Source: an uncultured Carboxylicivirga sp.
Lineage (GTDB): Bacteria > Bacteroidota > Bacteroidia > Bacteroidales > Marinilabiliaceae
Length of the DNA: 64,000 bases
Reading direction: 5' to 3'
NCBI RefSeq assembly: GCF_963668385.1
Contig: NZ_OY764327.1
Location: 4,870,501 to 4,934,500 of the forward strand
A program made the position numbers and the translations under genes. This document shows positions 9,593 to 38,478 of the stretch, piece after piece; the stretch's first letter is position 1; every line of letters begins with the position of its first letter. The notes under the pieces were generated by a model, which saw only the letters and a program-made list of their open reading frames with translations, was not told the DNA's origin and did no database searches.

Positions 9593-11503
9593 ATGAAAAC
9601 GATAATAGACTTTTTTGAAGATAGTGTTGAAAAATACCCGTCTAATACATTTGTATGGGAAAAAGAAGACAAGGAATTTAAAAGTTATTCCTATACTGAT
9701 ATTAAAAAGGAAGTTCACCGTTTTGCTAACGGATTATTATCATTAAATATTAATTATGGTGATCGCTTAGCATTATTATCAGAAGGACGTCGGTTATGGT
9801 TAGAAAGTGAATTGGCTATTTTTCATATTGGTGCTATAAATGTGCCATTATCGACCAAACTAGAAGCTGATGCTGATTTAGTATTTCGTTTAAATCACTC
9901 TGAAGCTGAAACCATTATAGTATCCAAAAACCAACTACCTAAAATAAGAGCAGTTAAGGAAGAGCTTACTTCAGTAAAAAGAATATTGGTTCTAGATGAC
10001 ATTGAAGACCTAGAAGACATTGAATTAAGCTTAAATTACTTATATGAACAAGCTGATTTATTTGCTTCAAAAAATCCCCATGCCCTCACGGAGTCTATTC
10101 AAAAAGTTAAACCAGATACCTTTGGTAACATTTGTTATACATCAGGAACAACAGCCGATCCTAAAGGAATCATTCTTTCACAGCGCAACTATACTGCTAA
10201 CATTGAGCAGGCATTTAGTTATATTGATATCCCACAACACTATAAAACACTGGTAGTATTGCCATGGGATCATGCATTTGCGCATACCGCTGCCCTTTAT
10301 TCATTTATGCAAGCAGGTGCTTCAATTGCATCAGTTCAAATTGGACGTAACCAACACGAAACATTAAAAAACTTCGTCACTAATATGATGGAAGTTAAAC
10401 CTGAAATTTTAATGAGTGTTCCAGCTCTTGCCAAAAACTTCAGAAAAAACATCGAAAAAGGCATAGAATCAAAAGGTAAAATTGCTTCAACATTATTTCA
10501 CGCTGGTTTAAATTATGCCTATTGGTACAACGGAACTGGTAATAATGCAGGGACAGGACTTAAAATCCTAACTAAACCACTTTATTCACTTTTTAAATCT
10601 GTACTATTTAATAAGGTAAAAGACAAATTTGGAGGCCAATTGCAATACTTTATTGGAGGAGGTGCTTTGTTAGACATTGAACTGCAACGCTTTTTCTATG
10701 CCATTGGTATGCCAATGTATCAAGGATATGGATTAAGTGAAGCCTCTCCTATCATATCTGCAAATACCCCAAAACATCATAAATTGGGCTCTTCAGGTAA
10801 AGTTGTTAATGATCTGGAAATTAAAATTTGTGATGAAGAAGGTAAAGATCTCCCTATTGGTGAAAAAGGAGAAATTGTTGTCAGAGGTGAGAATGTAATG
10901 AAAGGATATTGGAAAAATCCCGAAGCGACTGCTGATACTATTAAAAATAATTGGCTTTATACCGGAGACCTTGGTTATTTAGATGATGAAAACTATCTAT
11001 ATGTAATGGGCCGTTTTAAAAGTCTTTTAATTGGGGCTGATGGAGAAAAGTATAGTCCGGAAGGTATTGAAGAAGCTATTATTGACCATTGCCAGTATAT
11101 TGATCAGTTTGTTCTTCACAACAATCAAAATCCATACACAACAGGTTTAATTGTACCAAACAAAGAAAAAATTCAGACTTGGTTAAAACTTCATCATAAA
11201 AACATTGAAGATGAAAGCACTCAAGAAGAAATATTGAATATGATCAAAAGTGAAATTGATCATGTTAAAAATTCTAACCTTCCTGAATTATCTTTTCCTT
11301 CACGTTGGATGCCATCAACATCGGTTATTCTCCCTGAAGAATTTTCAGAAAACAACAAACTCATTAACAGCACCATGAAGGTCGTTAGAGGTAAAGTTGA
11401 AGAATATTTCGCGCAGGAAATTAGTTATTTATACTCTGCGGAAGCAAAGAATTTCAATTCACAACAGAACAAAAACAATTTAAATGCATTTATAAAAAGT
11501 TAG
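9593..11503 (+). CDS. Long-chain acyl-CoA synthetase (AMP-forming)
   Basis: Activates fatty acids to acyl-CoA through an acyl-adenylate, 636 aa. The P-loop-like motif YTSGTTADPKG starts at Y182. The A5 motif GYGLSEASP lies about residue 378, the A7 motif YTGDLG about 458 and the A8-like LLIGADGEKYSPEGIE about 480. The long C-terminal domain and the GGGALL segment fit the FadD15/long-chain ligase clade rather than acetyl-CoA synthetase. No signal peptide or membrane span. It is an isolated gene on the + strand, and I saw no clear promoter match in the 281-bp gap upstream. Confidence 0.88.
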   Translation: MKTIIDFFEDSVEKYPSNTFVWEKEDKEFKSYSYTDIKKEVHRFANGLLSLNINYGDRLALLSEGRRLWLESELAIFHIGAINVPLSTKLEADADLVFRLNHSEAETIIVSKNQLPKIRAVKEELTSVKRILVLDDIEDLEDIELSLNYLYEQADLFASKNPHALTESIQKVKPDTFGNICYTSGTTADPKGIILSQRNYTANIEQAFSYIDIPQHYKTLVVLPWDHAFAHTAALYSFMQAGASIASVQIGRNQHETLKNFVTNMMEVKPEILMSVPALAKNFRKNIEKGIESKGKIASTLFHAGLNYAYWYNGTGNNAGTGLKILTKPLYSLFKSVLFNKVKDKFGGQLQYFIGGGALLDIELQRFFYAIGMPMYQGYGLSEASPIISANTPKHHKLGSSGKVVNDLEIKICDEEGKDLPIGEKGEIVVRGENVMKGYWKNPEATADTIKNNWLYTGDLGYLDDENYLYVMGRFKSLLIGADGEKYSPEGIEEAIIDHCQYIDQFVLHNNQNPYTTGLIVPNKEKIQTWLKLHHKNIEDESTQEEILNMIKSEIDHVKNSNLPELSFPSRWMPSTSVILPEEFSENNKLINSTMKVVRGKVEEYFAQEISYLYSAEAKNFNSQQNKNNLNAFIKS

Positions 11504-24508: not shown

Positions 24509-25885
24509 ATGGAAACAATACTGACCTATATAGTTGATTTTTTTTATTCTTTGTTTGACTTACTAAAAGCCATGTCGCCCTACCTTTTACTAGGTTTTTT
24601 CTTTGCTGGAATTCTCAAAGTTTGGTTTCCACAGAGTTGGATCGACAGATTCATGGGCAAAAGCAACCTTGGATCGGTAGTTAATACTGCAATCTTAGGT
24701 ATTCCACTCCCACTTTGTTCGTGCGGCGTTATTCCAACAGGTATTTCATTTTATCGGAATGGAGCCTCAAAAGGATCAAGTGTCAGCTTTTTAATTTCAA
24801 CTCCTCAAACCGGAGTTGACTCCATTATGGTTACCTATTCGTTATTAGGTTTACCATTTGCTATTATTCGGGTTGTGGTTGCTCTGGTAACCGGAGTTTT
24901 TGGAGGAGTTGCTACTAACGCAATTGCCAAAGATGATAAGGTAGATGCATCGAAGTCGGGCGAAAGTTGCGAATCGGATAAAATGGGCACCAAACAAGGA
25001 TGGAAAGGTATTTTCCGATATGGCTTTTACGAATTCCTAATGGATATAGCCAAATGGTTAGTAATTGGTATATTGATCGCTGCTGTATTGGCCGTTATTA
25101 TTCCTGATGATTTCTTTGTGAACTACCTCGATAACGAACCGCTAAGCATGTTAATCATTCTTCTAGCATCGGTGCCTTTGTATTTATGTGCAACAGCATC
25201 GGTACCCATTGCCGCTGTATTAATGCTTAAAGGATTATCTCCGGGTGCTGCTTTGGTATTATTGATGGCCGGACCCGCCACCAATGCCGCAACTATCACT
25301 ATTATACAAAAGGTATTTGGTCTAAAAACGCTTCTCTCCTATTTAGGATCGATTATATTGGGTGCCATGATTTTCGGTACTTTAATCAATACTTTTTTAC
25401 CTCGCGAATGGTTTACTTTAGCCGAACATGCCATGCACGAAGGTCATCGCCATGAGTTATTACCCGAATGGTTTCAGTTATTATCAGCTGTTCTATTAAT
25501 TGGATTGATAGCAAATGGTTACTTTCAAAAGTATATGAAAAAACAACGCTTAAAGAAGGCGGCTATCAAAACAGAAAAACTATCGAAATCTATCATATTT
25601 AATAACAATACTAAAACAGCAACTGAAACACCTGTTGCTCCTGTGTTTAATACATCGTTTACCATGGCAAAACCAACCATTAAAACAACTTATATTGTTG
25701 AAGGAATGACTTGCAGTCATTGTAAAATGAGTGTGGAAAAGAATCTAGGTAAGCTAGATGGCATAACTTCAGTTGAGGCCGATCCACAAGCAAATCGTGT
25801 TACTGTAGAAGCTACCGAGCAGAATGATTCGATGATTGAATCTACAATTGAATCACTAGGATATTCGTATAAGGGATTGGCTTGA
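24509..25885 (+). CDS. SO_0444-type Cu/Zn efflux permease with C-terminal HMA domain
   Basis: Inner-membrane permease (DUF318 family), 458 aa, with two blocks of four or so membrane helices. The conserved PLCSCG motif (LPLCSCGVIPTGISFYRNGA) is near residue 70, SFLISTPQTGVDS follows at about 93, and the mirrored LLMAGPATNAATI lies about 250. A histidine-rich loop (EHAMHEGHRHELLPEW) is near 308-323. The last ~65 residues form a heavy-metal-associated domain with GMTCSHCKMS, which would hand a metal ion to the pore. Likely exports soft metals such as Cu or Zn, by family analogy. Its last eight codons are duplicated at 33335-33360. Confidence 0.85.
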   Translation: METILTYIVDFFYSLFDLLKAMSPYLLLGFFFAGILKVWFPQSWIDRFMGKSNLGSVVNTAILGIPLPLCSCGVIPTGISFYRNGASKGSSVSFLISTPQTGVDSIMVTYSLLGLPFAIIRVVVALVTGVFGGVATNAIAKDDKVDASKSGESCESDKMGTKQGWKGIFRYGFYEFLMDIAKWLVIGILIAAVLAVIIPDDFFVNYLDNEPLSMLIILLASVPLYLCATASVPIAAVLMLKGLSPGAALVLLMAGPATNAATITIIQKVFGLKTLLSYLGSIILGAMIFGTLINTFLPREWFTLAEHAMHEGHRHELLPEWFQLLSAVLLIGLIANGYFQKYMKKQRLKKAAIKTEKLSKSIIFNNNTKTATETPVAPVFNTSFTMAKPTIKTTYIVEGMTCSHCKMSVEKNLGKLDGITSVEADPQANRVTVEATEQNDSMIESTIESLGYSYKGLA

Positions 25886-25905
25886 GTATAATCCTCAAGC
25901 CAATC
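25875..25905. terminator. Hairpin at the stop codon of the permease
   Basis: GATTGGCTTGAG / CTCAAGCCAATC, a perfect 12-bp stem (25875-25886, 25894-25905) with 7-nt loop overlapping the stop. There is no T tract, so it may protect the 3' end rather than terminate alone. A 10-bp version occurs at 33350-33380. Confidence 0.55.
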
Positions 25906-26123
25906 AGCAATAATATAATTGAAGCATACAATAGAGCATTGACACCTATTATTACCAATAGATATTTTGCATTCACATTATGTAAAAATAGAAGTAAAGC
26001 TATCAACATCTAAACCGGTATCCATCACCCCCTTACAATAAAAGTTAGTAAATTTGTTGTAGTATGAATGATTATACATAGAGTACACAATACATCCATC
26101 CCCAAAATATGCCTAACAACCAT
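25886..26123 (-). pseudogene. Remnant of a CPBP-family protease gene
   Basis: A decayed second copy of the gene at 33389-34207. Translation from the ATG at 26123 gives MVVRH, then jumps to sequence matching residue ~182 onward of the intact protein: CIIIHTTTNLLTFIVRG then a stop, and after a frame change NAKYLLVIIG and NALLYASI match NAKYLLVILG-type residues near the C-terminus. About 175 codons, including the EExxxR catalytic motif and first His, are deleted. Upstream flanking bases (ATGGATTTAATGTTTAATTC) also match those of the intact copy. Confidence 0.85.
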
Positions 26124-26134
26124 GGATTTAATGT

Positions 26135-27682
26135 TTAATTCGAAGTATTATAAGGATTATTTATTAAGTCATCGATCTTCTTGTACAACTTATTTCCATC
26201 ACTTGCATAAGGCGCCTTTGGCTCTAATATATTTCCATCACCATCCACAATCATAAAGGTTGGAAACGATAATTGATTATTATATAAGCGTTGCATGTCT
26301 TTTTTTAAGAGTTGATTGGCTTTAATATGATAACCCACCAAATTATATTCCTTCATTAAGCTCTCCCACATCTGCTTATCCTCAGTATATTCGTAAGCAA
26401 TATAAACCATCTTCATTCCTCTAGTTTTCATCAGAGTCTTAACTTCATCCATATAATTGAATTGATTACGACAAGGCATACACCATGTACCCCAACAATC
26501 GATAAGCATTGGACTTCCTTCAAACATTTTAATTATTTCCGCAATTGAATTAATTGAGTCTCCGCTAACAATTACACACTCTTCAGGCATTGGACGAAGT
26601 GCAATTAATTCATATTCTTCGGCGCGCGGCATAAGCATCTTCCGTAGCACTTTACCCGCATAACTATCCTTCATATCAGAATTATCATCAAGATATTTCT
26701 TTGAAAGCTTTAGCGAATTAGGAGCCAATGCCGCAGTATTACACATATTTTTAATGGCTTGATATTGTTTATTTGCCTCTTCAGATAAGACTTCGCCAGA
26801 TTTAGCATAAATTGGAGCAAATGAAGCATCTCCTTTCCTCTTCACAGAGGAATACACTCCATCGTGATAATCCTCCCTGAATTCAAGGTATATATCGGTA
26901 TATTCAACCATATTAAAAAGATTACTCATCTTTTTCCCTTTAACCGGATACAATTCAAATATTTGTGGATATACTTTGTTCAATTGGTTAATTATCACCG
27001 AATCTTTTATTTGAAATTGAGGCATATGAAAGGATGATCTTATGGTGGTTGCTAATCTTTCGGCATACATATATTCGATATTCATTTTTGAAATATCATA
27101 TAACTGCTGAGATATCTCACCTTTTTCTAACAGTTGATCAAACACCCGTAAATGATTTTGTATTTTAGATTTCATAGAATCCAGTAATGATTCCGGTGCG
27201 TTTAAATTCCATTCATCATGAAAAAGAGAACCATGAATATAGTTAGGTATCTTGTTGTATTCAACCAACCCCTTATTATAAGTATAAAAACTTGTAGCAT
27301 CCGTGTTATACGATTCTAAAGTGTAAACATCTACATTTAATGACGATTTCCAGTCAGCTTCCTGCTGTCCTTCACTTACAATAGAATAACGATTATCGGG
27401 CTCAATAAGAAGCCTGCACATATGGTAGTAATGATTAATAGTTTCGTAAAAATGAAAAAACTCAGCATTTGTAATATAAGCCGACACTACAAATCGTCCC
27501 AAACTATCGGGTTTAACAATGTAATTACCCAAGTTTCCCGACACTGAAGAAATAGAATATCTTACTTTACTCTTTCCATCATAATTTAAAATTTGGCCTT
27601 CGATAAAAACATTAGGCTTTTGTTGACTCCATAACTGAAAAGCTATAAGACTAAATATAAATGCGATTATTACTTTTTTCAT
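26135..27682 (-). CDS. TlpA-like thioredoxin-fold protein
   Basis: 515 aa, exported (signal MKKVIIAFIFSLIAFQLWSQ). The N-terminal ~100 residues form a beta-sandwich of the DUF4369 type seen before thioredoxin domains in Bacteroidota, then a helical middle and a C-terminal thioredoxin domain. The redox motif is WCMPC (in DCWGTWCMPCRNQF, about residue 396), with the cis-Pro in LSFPTFMIVDGDGNI. It would act as a periplasmic thiol-disulfide reductase. It sits next to the CPBP remnant. A fragment of a second copy of its 3' end is found at 34216-34279. Confidence 0.88.
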   Translation of the reverse strand: MKKVIIAFIFSLIAFQLWSQQKPNVFIEGQILNYDGKSKVRYSISSVSGNLGNYIVKPDSLGRFVVSAYITNAEFFHFYETINHYYHMCRLLIEPDNRYSIVSEGQQEADWKSSLNVDVYTLESYNTDATSFYTYNKGLVEYNKIPNYIHGSLFHDEWNLNAPESLLDSMKSKIQNHLRVFDQLLEKGEISQQLYDISKMNIEYMYAERLATTIRSSFHMPQFQIKDSVIINQLNKVYPQIFELYPVKGKKMSNLFNMVEYTDIYLEFREDYHDGVYSSVKRKGDASFAPIYAKSGEVLSEEANKQYQAIKNMCNTAALAPNSLKLSKKYLDDNSDMKDSYAGKVLRKMLMPRAEEYELIALRPMPEECVIVSGDSINSIAEIIKMFEGSPMLIDCWGTWCMPCRNQFNYMDEVKTLMKTRGMKMVYIAYEYTEDKQMWESLMKEYNLVGYHIKANQLLKKDMQRLYNNQLSFPTFMIVDGDGNILEPKAPYASDGNKLYKKIDDLINNPYNTSN

Positions 27683-32875: not shown

Positions 32876-33025
32876 AGACTTTGCGTTATTTCTAAATTTT
32901 CTACAAGAATTGGTTGAATTCCAATACAAATCAAAACAAATTAGACTGTAAAACAAAATAAAATATATAAAATCATCCAATATATACTAATAAGAACCAA
33001 GCTCTTCGATCTTCAATTCTTTTAT

Positions 33026-33033
33026 TACTTTTG
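33026..33033 (+). promoter_or_regulatory. -7 promoter box of the orphan riboswitch
   Basis: TACTTTTG matches TAnnTTTG. The one mismatch with the other copy falls at a variable position of the box, so both copies look transcriptionally competent. Confidence 0.55.
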
Positions 33034-33039
33034 TGGCAC

Positions 33040-33245
33040 TAAGGTGCGCAAGCATAATAGGGAATCCGGTGCCTCAGTAAGCTGATATTCCGGAGCTGTC
33101 CCCGCAGCTGTAAATCTCAACGTCAATAACATTATGTCACTGATTAAAACCAATTATCGGGAAGACGTTATTTGATAAGGGATAAGCCAGAATACCTGCC
33201 TTAGCATATAAACTTCGGGGCAAAGTAGTCAGATATGCACCCAGG
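33040..33245 (+). ncRNA. Cobalamin riboswitch, orphan copy
   Basis: Adenosylcobalamin-type aptamer. Closing stem P1 pairs GGTGCGCA (33043-33050) with TATGCACC (33234-33241). The conserved core has GGAATCCGGTGC, GGAGCTGTCCCCGCAGCTGT and the B12-box-like GCCAGAATACCTGCC. TGCAC-CCAG-GTGCA (33236-33249) can compete with P1. Unlike the second copy, it is followed not by cob genes but by a 17-codon chimeric ORF and then the convergent CPBP gene. Confidence 0.92.
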
Positions 33246-33306
33246 TGCAGTATATTCTTTCCGCTTCCCTCCTGAAGATAATTGTTTAACTTTTAATGCA
33301 TAAACA

Positions 33307-33360
33307 ATGCAGGAGACTCAGATTAAAGCACTTGGATATTCGCCTAAGGGATTGGCTTGA
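33307..33360 (+). pseudogene. 17-codon chimera: cobT 5' end fused to permease 3' end
   Basis: Reads MQETQIKALGYSPKGLA-stop. The first nine codons are identical to cobT at 37444. From 33335 onward the sequence matches the last eight codons of the HMA permease (GYSYKGLA-stop at 25862-25885). The junction lies in CTTGGATA and keeps frame. It is the physical breakpoint of a duplication, not a recognisable functional gene, although it has a start, a stop and a riboswitch leader. Confidence 0.85.
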
Positions 33361-33380
33361 GAATAATTTCCAAGCCAATC
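33350..33380 (+). terminator. Hairpin at the end of the chimeric ORF
   Basis: GATTGGCTTG / CAAGCCAATC (33350-33359, 33371-33380), derived from the hairpin after the permease. No T tract. It could still stop or stabilise the 3' end of the riboswitch transcript before it enters the CPBP gene antisense. Confidence 0.45.
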
Positions 33381-33388
33381 GACATATA

Positions 33389-34207
33389 CTAATCACTAAT
33401 AATATCCATATACGATGCTTCGGAATCTTCCGACTTACTAAACAGCTGACGAATCAAGTAAATTGAAGCATACAACAGAGCATTGGACCCTAATATTACC
33501 AATAGATATTTTGCATCTATATTATATAAATCGGGAGTTAAACTTTCGGCATCCATGCCGCTATCCATTAAAACCCTTGCTATAAAAGATAGTAAATTTG
33601 TTGTGCCATGAATGATTATACATAACAGTACACTTTTGGTATTGTAATAAATCCACCCCAGAAAAATACCCAATAAAAAGGCAACAATAAATTGCCAGGG
33701 ATTCAAATGAACCAGTCCAAATAACATACTGGAAATAAGTATTGCCTTTTGAGGAGAATAACGCTTGATTAATCCTTCCATCATAATACCTCTAAAAATT
33801 AGTTCTTCTAATACTGGAGCAGCTACAACCAAAAGCAAAAATGAAAATACACTTACGTCTCCCCCAAAATTCATAAACATTTCTTGCACACTTTCGGGCA
33901 TGGGTATTAAACTCAAAACAGGATAAATAATTCCAAACAAAAGACATACAGTTGCAATTATCACCAATGGAATCAATAAATAATTATCTACATTCCAATT
34001 AAAGGCGACGCTTCCTTCCTTTTTCATTTTTATTTGACGCACAATCAGGTAGGTACCGCCCATTACCAACAAATAATAAAGCAGCATGGCAATATCCTGA
34101 GGTAAAAAACGATCGGTTAACAATAACAGTGGGGCTATTCCAATACTTAGTCCAACTGCTATACCTACAATTCCGAAACTCTGTGATACATTTGGGTAAT
34201 TTCTCAT
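33389..34207 (-). CDS. CPBP-family intramembrane glutamic endopeptidase
   Basis: Membrane protease of the CAAX/bacteriocin-processing (Abi/RCE1-like) family, 272 aa with about eight hydrophobic segments. The catalytic motifs are intact: EELIFRG (Glu134, Glu135, Arg139), FGLVHLNP (His167) and IIIHGTTNLL (His200, Asn204). Substrate unknown; possible roles range from peptide processing to immunity. It is transcribed toward the orphan riboswitch. A truncated copy lies at 25886-26123, the two being about 80% identical where alignable. Confidence 0.88.
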   Translation of the reverse strand: MRNYPNVSQSFGIVGIAVGLSIGIAPLLLLTDRFLPQDIAMLLYYLLVMGGTYLIVRQIKMKKEGSVAFNWNVDNYLLIPLVIIATVCLLFGIIYPVLSLIPMPESVQEMFMNFGGDVSVFSFLLLVVAAPVLEELIFRGIMMEGLIKRYSPQKAILISSMLFGLVHLNPWQFIVAFLLGIFLGWIYYNTKSVLLCIIIHGTTNLLSFIARVLMDSGMDAESLTPDLYNIDAKYLLVILGSNALLYASIYLIRQLFSKSEDSEASYMDIISD

Positions 34208-34215
34208 GGATTTAA

Positions 34216-34279
34216 TGTTTAATTCAAAGTATGCTAAGGATTACTTATTTCCATCGCTCGGATAAGGTGACTTTTGCAC
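34216..34279 (-). pseudogene. 3' fragment of a second TlpA-like gene
   Basis: Minus-strand reading gives VQKSPYPSDGNK-stop, matching PKAPYASDGNK near the C-terminus of the protein encoded at 26135-27682. The bases between it and the CPBP start also match (ATTTAATGTTTAATTC). A 28-bp deletion relative to the intact copy removes the last residues. The rest of the gene is absent, replaced by unrelated sequence. Confidence 0.75.
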
Positions 34280-34299
34280 TAAAAACAGATAAAATTTAC

Positions 34300-34347: not shown

Positions 34348-34380
34348 GCAAAGCCCCGTTCACATCCCGATATTATTCTT
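34348..34380. repeat. 33-bp direct repeat, left copy
   Basis: Identical to 35745-35777 over 33 bp (begins GCAAAGCCCCGTTCACATCC), and similar for about 11 more bases. The two copies bracket the TMEM43-like gene. Confidence 0.85.
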
Positions 34381-34454
34381 ATGTATTTTGTTAGATATAA
34401 TCTTTCTGAATACAATAGAAGTTGGTACAAGTTGCACAATGAGCTAACTAAATA

Positions 34455-35744: not shown

Positions 35745-35777
35745 GCAAAGCCCCGTTCACATCCCGATATTATTCTT
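35745..35777. repeat. 33-bp direct repeat, right copy
   Basis: Overlaps the last three codons of the gene at 35770-36459, so the left copy at 34348-34380 looks like a displaced scrap of this gene's 3' end. Confidence 0.85.
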
Positions 35778-36459
35778 CTGTATTTTCTTCGTTTGACTGT
35801 TTTTTTGTTCTAGTAGCCGGATCGATAATCATACTGGCTGCTTTAAAGGCGAGGTAAAATTCTTTATCGTCGATAAACAATTCCATTAATGGTGTTATCG
35901 ATTCGCGGCACAACAAACCGGTTTCAGCGATGGTATCTTCCAATAATTCTTTACTTGTTTTTCTATCTTCAATTAATTTCCGAGGCTCGGAAACAACAGC
36001 CTTAAAATCGTTCAGCTCAGTAATCAGTTCCTCTGTCAATTCAGTTGTCCAACCAAAGGTTTTTACAACTTCACCTAACGACAATATACGGCTATACATA
36101 TTCTCAGCGTACGAAATTAACTCGCTGTCTTTTGTATCTGAACTTAATGACGAGCTAGCAGTTATAAGTAAATTATGTAAGTTCTTGTCTCGGTTAACAT
36201 TAGCATACACTTTTAACATATTACTTGCCTTTACTAGTATTGGAACCAAATCTTCTTTCGTTAATTTTTTATTACCAGCTGTTTTTAACGGAATGTTCTC
36301 AACCTTTATTAATAATGCATCTGCTTTATCGTTATTTAGTCCTAAATCATTATTGAAAGCAACAAGAATTGGAACTGACTCAATTCTAGATGAATATTCA
36401 TTTAAACATTCATATATTCTCTTATTGGCATCGTGCCTCGACTTTAATGATTTTTTCAT
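35770..36459 (-). CDS. Uncharacterised helical protein
   Basis: 229 aa, no signal peptide or membrane segment. Predicted mostly helical and highly charged, with Leu-spaced stretches such as LVPILVKASNMLKVYA, SYAENMYSRILSLGEV and TEELITELNDFKAVV that suggest a helical bundle or coiled coil. Lys-rich N-terminus (MKKSLKSRHDANKR) and Glu-rich C-terminus (NEENTEE). I do not recognise a named family. It lies upstream of the TMEM43-like gene on the same strand. Its own upstream region carries the 21-bp repeat array B. Coding is supported by length and composition. Confidence 0.6.
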   Translation of the reverse strand: MKKSLKSRHDANKRIYECLNEYSSRIESVPILVAFNNDLGLNNDKADALLIKVENIPLKTAGNKKLTKEDLVPILVKASNMLKVYANVNRDKNLHNLLITASSSLSSDTKDSELISYAENMYSRILSLGEVVKTFGWTTELTEELITELNDFKAVVSEPRKLIEDRKTSKELLEDTIAETGLLCRESITPLMELFIDDKEFYLAFKAASMIIDPATRTKKQSNEENTEE

Positions 36460-37150
36460 AATAATTAAATTTTTGTGGTGTTATAATACCAATTCGTTGG
36501 TTAATATATAATTATTATTTAATAATACATATTGAATATTTAAAAATAATATTTATCTCCTTGAGTATTTTTTTAATTTATAATAATTCTTAATAAATAA
36601 AGGTATATCATGTGCCTAAAGCAACCGGATATTGTACTGTTTCAACAAGCTTCTTAATTATCCTTACAACCTTGTTATCTATTCTTATATAATTATATAT
36701 CATCCTGTAGAATAGATAGTTTATCCTTTTACTTCAAGACTCTAACCTGACATCTTCCCGGTCTATCCTGACGTCTTCCCAATCTATCCTGATACCCTCC
36801 CGGTCTATCCTGACACCTTCCCAGTTTATCCTGAAACCATTCCACTCTATTCTAACAGATTCCCGACATATCCTAACGTCATACAAGTTAGTCCTAACGT
36901 TCTACAGGCTTATCTTTTTATCATTATATATTATACAGATACATAAATAGTCTTTTCTTTCACATTCACACTGTATCCTGATAACATCACATACTATCCT
37001 AACAAACTTACTTCCTACTTTTTGAGTTGATTACTTCTTCAGGCTTACAATTCTAGTCTTCGGTCCTCTTCCCCATGGTTCGACAAACTCACCAATTCTT
37101 AACCCTAAATCTATCCATCAAAACATCTAAACATGGCAGAGCTCCACATC
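36460..37150. other. 691-bp intergenic region upstream of the cob riboswitch
   Basis: No gene is seen. The first ~200 bp are very AT-rich. From 36677 to 37012 it is filled with 21-bp repeats (separate entry). The rest, 37013-37150, is unremarkable until homology with the orphan riboswitch begins at 37151. Confidence 0.6.
36677..37012. repeat. Degenerate 21-bp tandem repeat array (array B)
   Basis: Sixteen rows of 21 starting at 36677 line up without indels. Consensus is close to GTCTATCCTGACATCTTCCC plus one base. The best rows are 36761-36781, 36782-36802, 36803-36823 and 36824-36844. Weaker rows continue outward on both sides (e.g. ATCTATTCTTATATAATTAT at 36677 and CTGTATCCTGATAACATCAC at 36971). 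Two forward frames are open across the core because 21 is a multiple of 3 (heptads such as VYPDTFP and SILTPSQ), but neither has a usable start codon. Confidence 0.8.
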
Positions 37151-37162
37151 CAATTCTTTTAT

Positions 37163-37170
37163 TATTTTTG
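37163..37170 (+). promoter_or_regulatory. -7 promoter box of the cob operon
   Basis: TATTTTTG matches TAnnTTTG just before the riboswitch. Confidence 0.55.
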
Positions 37171-37176
37171 TGGCAC

Positions 37177-37382
37177 TAAGGTGCGCAAGCATAATAGGGA
37201 ATCCGGTGCCTCAGTAAGCTGATATTCCGGAGCTGTCCCCGCAGCTGTAAATCTCAACGTCAATAACATTATGTCACTGATTAAAACCAATTATCGGGAA
37301 GACGTTATTTGATAAGGGATAAGCCAGAATACCTGCCTTAGCATATAAACTTCGGGGCAAAGTAGTCAGATATGCACCCAGG
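37177..37382 (+). ncRNA. Cobalamin riboswitch controlling cobT-cobS-cobC-cobU
   Basis: Same aptamer as the orphan copy: P1 GGTGCGCA with TATGCACC, core CCGGTGC / GGAGCTGTCCCCGCAGCTGT, and the 3' box GCCAGAATACCTGCC. The leader ends about 60 bp before the cobT ATG at 37444. High adenosylcobalamin is expected to switch the operon off, by analogy with characterised cob riboswitches. Confidence 0.95.
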
Positions 37383-37443
37383 TGCAGTATATTCTTTCCG
37401 CTTCCCTCCTGAAGATAATTGTTTAACTTTTAATGCATAAACA

Positions 37444-38478
37444 ATGCAGGAGACTCAGATTAAAGCACTTGATCACACATTAGATCAAGCTATTACCGAA
37501 AAAATCAACGGTAAAACCAAACCATTAGGTTCATTGGGCCAACTCGAAACCGTTGGAGCCCAAGTTTGTCGCATTCAGCAGACATTACATCCAAAACTTG
37601 AAAAACCAGCTATTTTGGTTTGTGCAGGCGATCATGGCGTTACGCAAGAGGGCATTAGTCCTTTTCCACAAGAAGTAACATTTCAAATGGTAATGAACTT
37701 CCTTGCCGGAGGAGCTGCTATTAACGTATTTAGTCGTCAGCACAATATTAAATTATTAGTTGCTGATACCGGTGTTAACTTCGATTTTGAAAGCACTCCC
37801 CAATTGCTGGATAAAAAAGTAGCTAAAGGAACCCGCAACTTTGCCGTTGAACCGGCCATGAGCATACATGAATGTAAAAAGGCCATGCAAAATGGGGCTG
37901 ATATTGTTAACGAATTACATAAGGAAGGAACAAATATTATTGGCTTTGGCGAAATGGGAATTGGAAATACAACCTCTGCTGCTGCCCTTCTATGTAAATA
38001 TGCAAATATAAAACCTATTGAGGCTTGTGGTGCCGGAACTGGTCTTGATCAGAAAGGAATTCAGCATAAAGCCGAGGTGATTGAAAAAGCGTTAAGCCTG
38101 CATCAATCCTTTACTGATCCTTTGGAAATTCTTGCCTGCTTCGGAGGATTTGAAACAGCAACAATTTGTGGCGCTATGTTAAAAGCGGCTGAGTTGAAAA
38201 TGATAATAATGGTGGATGGCTTTATTGTTACCTCTGCCCTCTTAGCAGCTAATGCCATGCAACCTTCCATCCTGGATTATTGTATTTTTACCCATCAAAG
38301 CAACGAGCAAGGCCACAAACATATGCTTACACACCTAAGAGCAAATGCGTTACTTAATATTGGCATGCGATTGGGTGAAGGAACAGGAGCAGCTGTAGCC
38401 TATCCATTGATTCAGTCGGCAGTTACCTTTATTAACGAAATGAGCAGCTTTGCCGATGCAGGCGTAAGTAATCGATAA
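37444..38478 (+). CDS. cobT: Nicotinate-nucleotide:DMB phosphoribosyltransferase
   Basis: Makes alpha-ribazole phosphate for the lower axial ligand of cobalamin, 344 aa. Conserved PLGSLGQLE (about residues 26-34), CAGDHGVTQEGISPFP, GEMGIGNTTSAAAL, and the catalytic Glu within LGEGTGAAVA near residue 315. First gene of the operon behind the riboswitch. Its first nine codons are duplicated at 33307. A 14-bp hairpin lies between this gene and cobS. Confidence 0.97.
   Translation: MQETQIKALDHTLDQAITEKINGKTKPLGSLGQLETVGAQVCRIQQTLHPKLEKPAILVCAGDHGVTQEGISPFPQEVTFQMVMNFLAGGAAINVFSRQHNIKLLVADTGVNFDFESTPQLLDKKVAKGTRNFAVEPAMSIHECKKAMQNGADIVNELHKEGTNIIGFGEMGIGNTTSAAALLCKYANIKPIEACGAGTGLDQKGIQHKAEVIEKALSLHQSFTDPLEILACFGGFETATICGAMLKAAELKMIIMVDGFIVTSALLAANAMQPSILDYCIFTHQSNEQGHKHMLTHLRANALLNIGMRLGEGTGAAVAYPLIQSAVTFINEMSSFADAGVSNR

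Follow-up and report, generated by a model that had tools for sequence, protein, structure and literature searches.

A near-identical copy of a cobT cobalamin riboswitch in a Carboxylicivirga genome is probably a by-product of an old tandem duplication

A second, complete copy of the cobalamin riboswitch that precedes cobT stands before a 17-codon ORF in the genome of an uncultured Carboxylicivirga sp., within a stretch of 64,000 nucleotides of contig NZ_OY764327.1 (positions 4,870,501 to 4,934,500; hereafter the window, to which all unqualified coordinates refer). This orphan copy is probably the junction of an old tandem duplication, with a riboswitch that was homogenised later and that persists as a by-product without a selected role. 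Judged by sequence comparison, the orphan is real and complete and is most likely inert, or nearly inert, rather than a new regulator. Ordinary duplication can thus set an intact riboswitch before unrelated DNA, and near-identical riboswitch copies can arise by homogenisation rather than through function. The features of the locus are collected in Table 1.

Table 1. Features of the duplicated locus, in window coordinates
Feature	Position	Strand	Evidence
ArsP-type permease with C-terminal HMA domain	24509-25885	+	PF03773, E 2.6e-49; PF00403, E 1.9e-14
Copy 1 junction region (permease tail, hairpin, deleted CPBP remnant, CPBP start)	25847-26165	none	self-alignment
Thioredoxin-like gene, intact in copy 1, lost in copy 2	26135-27682	-	PF13905, E 3.4e-8
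Block 1, permease tail and hairpin	25847-25905 vs 33322-33380		85%
Block 2, CPBP 3' end	25917-26088 vs 33461-33633		80% with gaps; 142/169 aligned bases
Block 3, CPBP start region	26121-26165 vs 34205-34249		91%
Block 4, end of thioredoxin-like gene	26188-26227 vs 34243-34282		82.5%
Duplicated cobT leader (orphan): -7 box, complete cobalamin aptamer, expression platform, start codon, 9 cobT codons	33014-33334	+	
17-codon chimeric ORF	33307-33360	+	sequence: MQETQIKALGYSPKGLA-stop
Proposed tandem-duplication junction	33329-33335	+	cobT GCACTTGATC vs permease TCACTAGGAT
Hairpin	33350-33380	none	−18.3 kcal/mol, z −4.25; no U-tract on either strand
Intact CPBP (Rce1-like) protease gene, copy 2	33389-34207	-	PF02517, E 3.8e-26
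Remnant of thioredoxin-like gene 3' end, copy 2	34219-34282	-	stop at 26135 ~ 34219
Native riboswitch and cobT start	37151-37471	+	RF00174, 103.7 bits
cobT (DBI_PRT phosphoribosyltransferase)	37444-38478	+	PF02277, E 4.4e-133

The original prediction described a complete cobalamin riboswitch with a promoter box, one mismatch away from the cobT copy over 321 bp, and both parts of this description hold. In the Rfam scan, RF00174 matches the orphan at 33025-33217 (103.1 bits against a gathering threshold of 31.5) and the cobT leader at 37162-37354 (103.7 bits), in each case over model positions 1-189, and no other family exceeded its gathering threshold in the window. The aptamer, the -7 box and the expression platform are intact in the orphan, and 320 of the 321 bases of the two leaders are equal in a gapless alignment. 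The sole mismatch (C at 33028, T at 37165) falls on what we take to be a free position of a TAnnTTTG-like -7 box. A C is also found at the equivalent position in two congeneric genomes, G003 and G001; the orphan keeps the base of the relatives and the cobT copy has changed. Since the identity starts 12 nt 5' of the -7 box, a -33 promoter element, if there is any, is not common to both copies. A CGGGGC motif after the orphan aptamer is complementary to a CCCCG stretch (duplex of −9.1 kcal/mol, a value for complementarity only), the two presumably being the L13 and L5 loops of the cobalamin riboswitch. The source genome, a single contig of 6.27 Mb, has 10 cobalamin riboswitches. Among 217 within-genome pairs formed by 79 riboswitches from 14 congeneric genomes, the next-closest pair is only 82% identical, which rules out that the likeness of the orphan to the cobT leader arose by chance.

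The predicted layout of riboswitch, 17-codon ORF, hairpin and convergent CPBP gene was located in the sequence in full. The ORF consists of cobT codons 1-9 (MQETQIKAL) fused in frame to GYSPKGLA, and these last eight codons are a copy of the end of the permease gene, which reads GYSYKGLA. The bases CACT.G around the break are common to cobT and permease. Similarly, the hairpin behind the ORF, which the terminator scan did not score as terminator-like, duplicates a hairpin at the permease stop (25875-25905), where the sequence from 25858 to 25920 folds at −19.2 kcal/mol (z = −4.08). A 56-codon frame also opens, at 33296, and crosses the hairpin to 33466; it is mechanical and was given no weight. 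No B12-related gene follows the orphan, the longest same-strand frame opening within 500 nt having 56 codons. For 75 of the 79 riboswitches of the genus, a frame of at least 144 codons opens on the same strand within 500 nt, these being mechanical frames that are not all annotated and some of which run past the sequence compared. Of the four riboswitches lacking such a frame, that of G011 sits at the edge of its contig, where a frame just begins, that of G009 has a second riboswitch 297 nt downstream, and one in the source genome precedes a 490-codon frame that opens just past the 500-nt limit. The fourth is the orphan, the only one of the 79 with no gene, contig edge or further riboswitch after it. 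On contig C72 of G009 (locus L059), two cobalamin riboswitches (10224-10422 and 9712-9927) stand on the same strand about 300 nt apart.

Self-alignment returned four collinear blocks, which follow the permease tail on one side and the orphan on the other, the 3' end of the intact permease gene being the left edge of the duplicated unit. Copy 1 (from 25847) has lost the middle of the CPBP gene and retains the thioredoxin-like gene intact; copy 2 (from 33335) retains the CPBP gene intact and a remnant of the thioredoxin-like gene. Collinear blocks with such complementary losses are the pattern expected from a tandem duplication followed by complementary loss. Tandem duplication with reciprocal gene loss is a general form of bacterial genome rearrangement. 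The bodies of the two copies are largely unlike (7.5 kb vs 4.1 kb), and therefore the duplicated unit can be read from its edges alone. The region upstream of 33014 and that upstream of the cobT leader share no homology above mononucleotide shuffles, which scored as well in 774 of 2000 cases over 100 nt, in 1239 of 2000 over 40 nt and in 481 of 500 over a longer stretch. The left boundary of the copy is thus unexplained and would have to reflect replacement or decay; a tandem-duplication junction that has undergone later loss need not keep homology at its left end.

A mobile element was considered and rejected: by Pfam, the two genes that separate the duplicated tails are a thioredoxin-like and a beta-helix gene, neither of them an integrase, and the homology spans parts of several genes. 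A plasmid search with 33014-33380 gave no match, and no viral contig was found with a 26-base riboswitch pattern. Other repeats occur nearby. A 45-base direct repeat (34348-34392 and 35745-35789, 95.6% identity), with two copies found genome-wide, flanks a TMEM43-like gene and is perhaps a second small duplication at the same locus, and an imperfect tandem repeat with a 21-base period lies upstream of the native cobT riboswitch (36741-36887).

The gene order of relatives fits the same reading in part. The permease gene is directly upstream of a single riboswitch-cobT in G003 and G013 and is separated from it by one other gene in G001, that is, at 3 of the 10 loci of relatives; at the other 7, no permease match was found within about 1.5 kb upstream of riboswitch-cobT. 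The permease gene of the source genome and its counterpart before riboswitch-cobT in G003 are 82.8% identical. Neither G003 nor G001 has a CPBP or thioredoxin-like gene at the locus, and the complete unit in unduplicated form was not found. The intervening gene of G001 (locus L027, 8536-9369) is a different one, and the gap between permease and riboswitch-cobT may be a place that collects genes. The riboswitch-cobT leader is present in 12 of the 14 genomes of the genus, the source genome included, and was not found in G005 or G011. The best CPBP match in the genus, in G010, is 40% identical and lies on a contig other than that of the cobT leader of that genome; across 71 family genomes, the highest CPBP identity among the matches listed is 42%. 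An exact 29-base riboswitch pattern is also present in C. linearis FB218 and in Marinilabiliaceae bacterium A049.

The 71 family genomes were searched for the chimera with positions 33200-33700 (E ≤ 1e-6), scoring up to nine candidates per genome. The riboswitch part of the query matched the source genome, G003 and G001, and the permease-tail/CPBP part matched its own genome only, as it also did when all candidates were scored in the 14 genomes of the genus. The chimera was found in 0 of the 70 other family genomes at up to nine candidates each. The original prediction had named the absence of the orphan copy from all relatives and close strains as an outcome that would speak against a function; the search of the relatives agrees with part of this outcome. 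Its more cautious alternative, a by-product of duplication, is supported by the collinear blocks, the in-frame fusion of cobT and permease and, in part, the gene order of relatives.

We infer the following order of events. The ancestral locus would have held the permease gene, the convergent CPBP and thioredoxin-like genes, and then riboswitch-cobT. A tandem duplication, with its break in a short microhomology, would have placed the last eight permease codons behind codon 9 of cobT and so produced a second CPBP gene, a further copy of the permease hairpin and a second riboswitch, now heading a 17-codon fusion ORF. The two copies would then have shed complementary genes, and the riboswitches would have been homogenised later; the simplest means is gene conversion, the direct repeats being 4.1 kb apart. 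The orphan RNA, if transcribed, should bind B12 and so regulate how the 17-codon ORF is translated.

Homogenisation is suggested by the unequal divergence of riboswitch and flanks. In the duplicated blocks outside the riboswitch 47 of 313 sites differ, compared with 1 of 321 within it (P = 1.7×10−14, Fisher's exact test), and 44 of 300 differ (P = 8×10−14) once the 13 bases to the cobT side of the break are left out; the blocks were picked by BLAST, so that the divergence of 15% is probably low, and two of the blocks overlap by seven bases of copy 2 (34243-34249). Compared with G003, the source genome shows 9% divergence in the riboswitch, 17-20% in the neighbouring genes and 25% in the upstream stretch that could be aligned. 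Scaling with the riboswitch ratios of 0.3-0.5 from this comparison, 14-24 differences would be expected had both copies been functional since the duplication, and the probability of one or fewer is at most 1.1×10−5. The riboswitches were thus probably made identical after their flanks began to diverge, and gene conversion is the simplest and likeliest means. The main alternative is import, in which a crossover at the conserved riboswitch brought in DNA of a related species that was joined illegitimately to the permease tail, so that the flanks would diverge as between species and the riboswitch would be identical through the crossover. This alternative seems unlikely to us. The flank divergence of 15% is near the 17-20% of the neighbouring genes in the comparison with G003, and the riboswitch is a natural crossover site; however, no donor with a close CPBP gene was found, the 42% match noted above being the highest listed. 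By either route, the near-identity is no argument for function. Of the explanations originally offered for it (recent origin, gene conversion or selection), gene conversion stands as the likeliest in view of the diverged flanks, and the use of near-identity as evidence of function falls away.

It is correspondingly very unlikely that selection holds the two riboswitches identical because the orphan RNA works in trans as a sponge, a peptide source or a B12 buffer. The single difference in 321 sites while the flanks decayed is what such a role would predict, but the 9% difference of the cobT leader between the source genome and G003 indicates that selection alone would hardly leave so few changes, and the Rfam scan of the window gave no other RNA family at gathering thresholds. 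An assembly artefact, to which near-identical repeats are prone, is extremely improbable given a single contig of 6.27 Mb, a one-base difference between the copies, flanks that are distinct on either side, and tail pieces that are diverged rather than copied.

The conserved element around the cobT start codon is a more useful lead than the orphan. CCUCCUGAAG and AUGCAGGAG are invariant in 12 of 12 cobT leaders, with 26-29 variable bases between them; the pair CCUCCUGAAG ... AUGCAGGAG occurs at 37405-37452 and in 11 relatives (L052, L054, L055, L064, L067, L071, L072, L074, L078, L094 and L099), and was not seen in the other 66 non-orphan leaders. CCTCCTGAAG is present within 260 nt of the aptamer in the 12 cobT leaders and the orphan and in none of the 66 others, a few of which are possibly cut by contig or sequence ends. 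CAGGAG, which lies just inside the ORF, is able to pair with CUCCUG (duplex of −10.7 kcal/mol), which would put the start codon in a hairpin, and each of the 12 sequences folds with five or six outer pairs between the two. CAG GAG is used in all 12, though CAG makes up 20-50% of Gln and GAG 12-54% of Glu codons in the same genes; the genomes are related and no probability is claimed. An inner stem drawn from the leader of the source genome fits only 3 of the 12 leaders fully and was dropped, and no pair of the masking helix varies, leaving it without covariation support. These observations suggest that CCUCCUGAAG ... AUGCAGGAG is a candidate start-codon-masking element. A possible competitor is CUUCGGGG of the L13 hairpin, and its pairing with UCCUGAAG as an alternative state is suggestive only (equalled by 1-15 of 200 shuffled regions per genome, at invariant positions).

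Of 13 cobT-type leaders, 12 (among them the orphan) are free of five-T runs over the 138 nt that follow the aptamer; the exception, G013, has two. The terminator scan called a weak terminator-like hairpin of five pairs at 33236-33249. A terminator rule of at least five consecutive bases after the stem is used in the part of PMC9600662 drawn on here. From the lack of a U-tract terminator and the invariant start-codon-masking complementarity, we infer that the cobT leader would act on translation. Against this count the weak hairpin, the 37 of 38 cobalamin riboswitches working in a B. subtilis reporter that have a predicted terminator (PMC9600662, same part), and the proposal, in the section of PMC12751083 available to us, that cobalamin riboswitches of B. 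thetaiotaomicron act by premature termination. The conserved pair of motifs provides a testable start-codon-masking model for the genus.

This bears on the bolder claim of the original prediction, B12-controlled RNA antisense to the protease gene, in which low B12 would let transcription pass the hairpin into the convergent CPBP gene and lower its expression, as with AspocR. The riboswitch, the -7 box and the convergent geometry are real, read-through is possible at a hairpin without a U-tract, and a weak terminator-like hairpin was called at 33236-33249. The absence of five-T runs from 12 of 13 leaders, that of the orphan among them, and a masking complementarity by which B12 should act on translation nevertheless argue against it. 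Under translational control, B12 itself would not decide how far the RNA reaches into the CPBP gene unless Rho couples the two, and translational riboswitches can alter transcription via Rho, as the excerpt of PMC12810186 describes for the Mbox leader. Moreover, the arrangement is present in 1 of 71 family genomes (up to nine candidates each) and is explained by the duplication junction. Antisense control is therefore highly improbable. We give as little credence to a new B12-responsive RNA that is transcribed and kept, whether for a 17-residue peptide at low B12 or for damping of CPBP by read-through; if true, a duplication junction would here have given rise to a riboswitch regulator that is seen shortly after its origin.

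A search of titles and the beginnings of abstracts returned no publication about the locus and none on Carboxylicivirga riboswitches. Compared with the cobalamin riboswitch family RF00174, the orphan is alike in its full-length aptamer and as a copy of the cobT leader, and is unlike in having a 17-codon fusion ORF in place of a gene. In the portion of PMC8079631 considered here, both AspocR and Rli55 of Listeria monocytogenes rely on B12-controlled transcription termination. AspocR, a premature transcription termination switch that is 1,400 nt long without B12, resembles the orphan in that a B12 riboswitch is positioned for RNA antisense to a gene; the orphan differs in that its platform has no U-tract terminator, a hairpin precedes the target gene, and the relatives yielded no copy. 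Rli55 likewise has a B12 riboswitch ahead of a non-coding RNA, which there carries an ANTAR-like element binding EutV (PMC8079631, same portion), whereas no other Rfam family reached gathering thresholds in our window. The Mbox leader of Mycobacterium tuberculosis, compared by the description excerpted from PMC12810186, is a translational riboswitch with a small ORF and a link to Rho, and resembles the orphan in a very short ORF behind a platform that, in the orphan too, is probably translational. There the short ORF is conserved and has further genes downstream, whereas that of the orphan is a fusion found in one genome. In its ordered duplicated blocks, microhomology junction and complementary decay, the locus resembles tandem-duplication junctions in general, from which it differs in having an intact riboswitch and start codon at the junction, kept nearly identical to the original.
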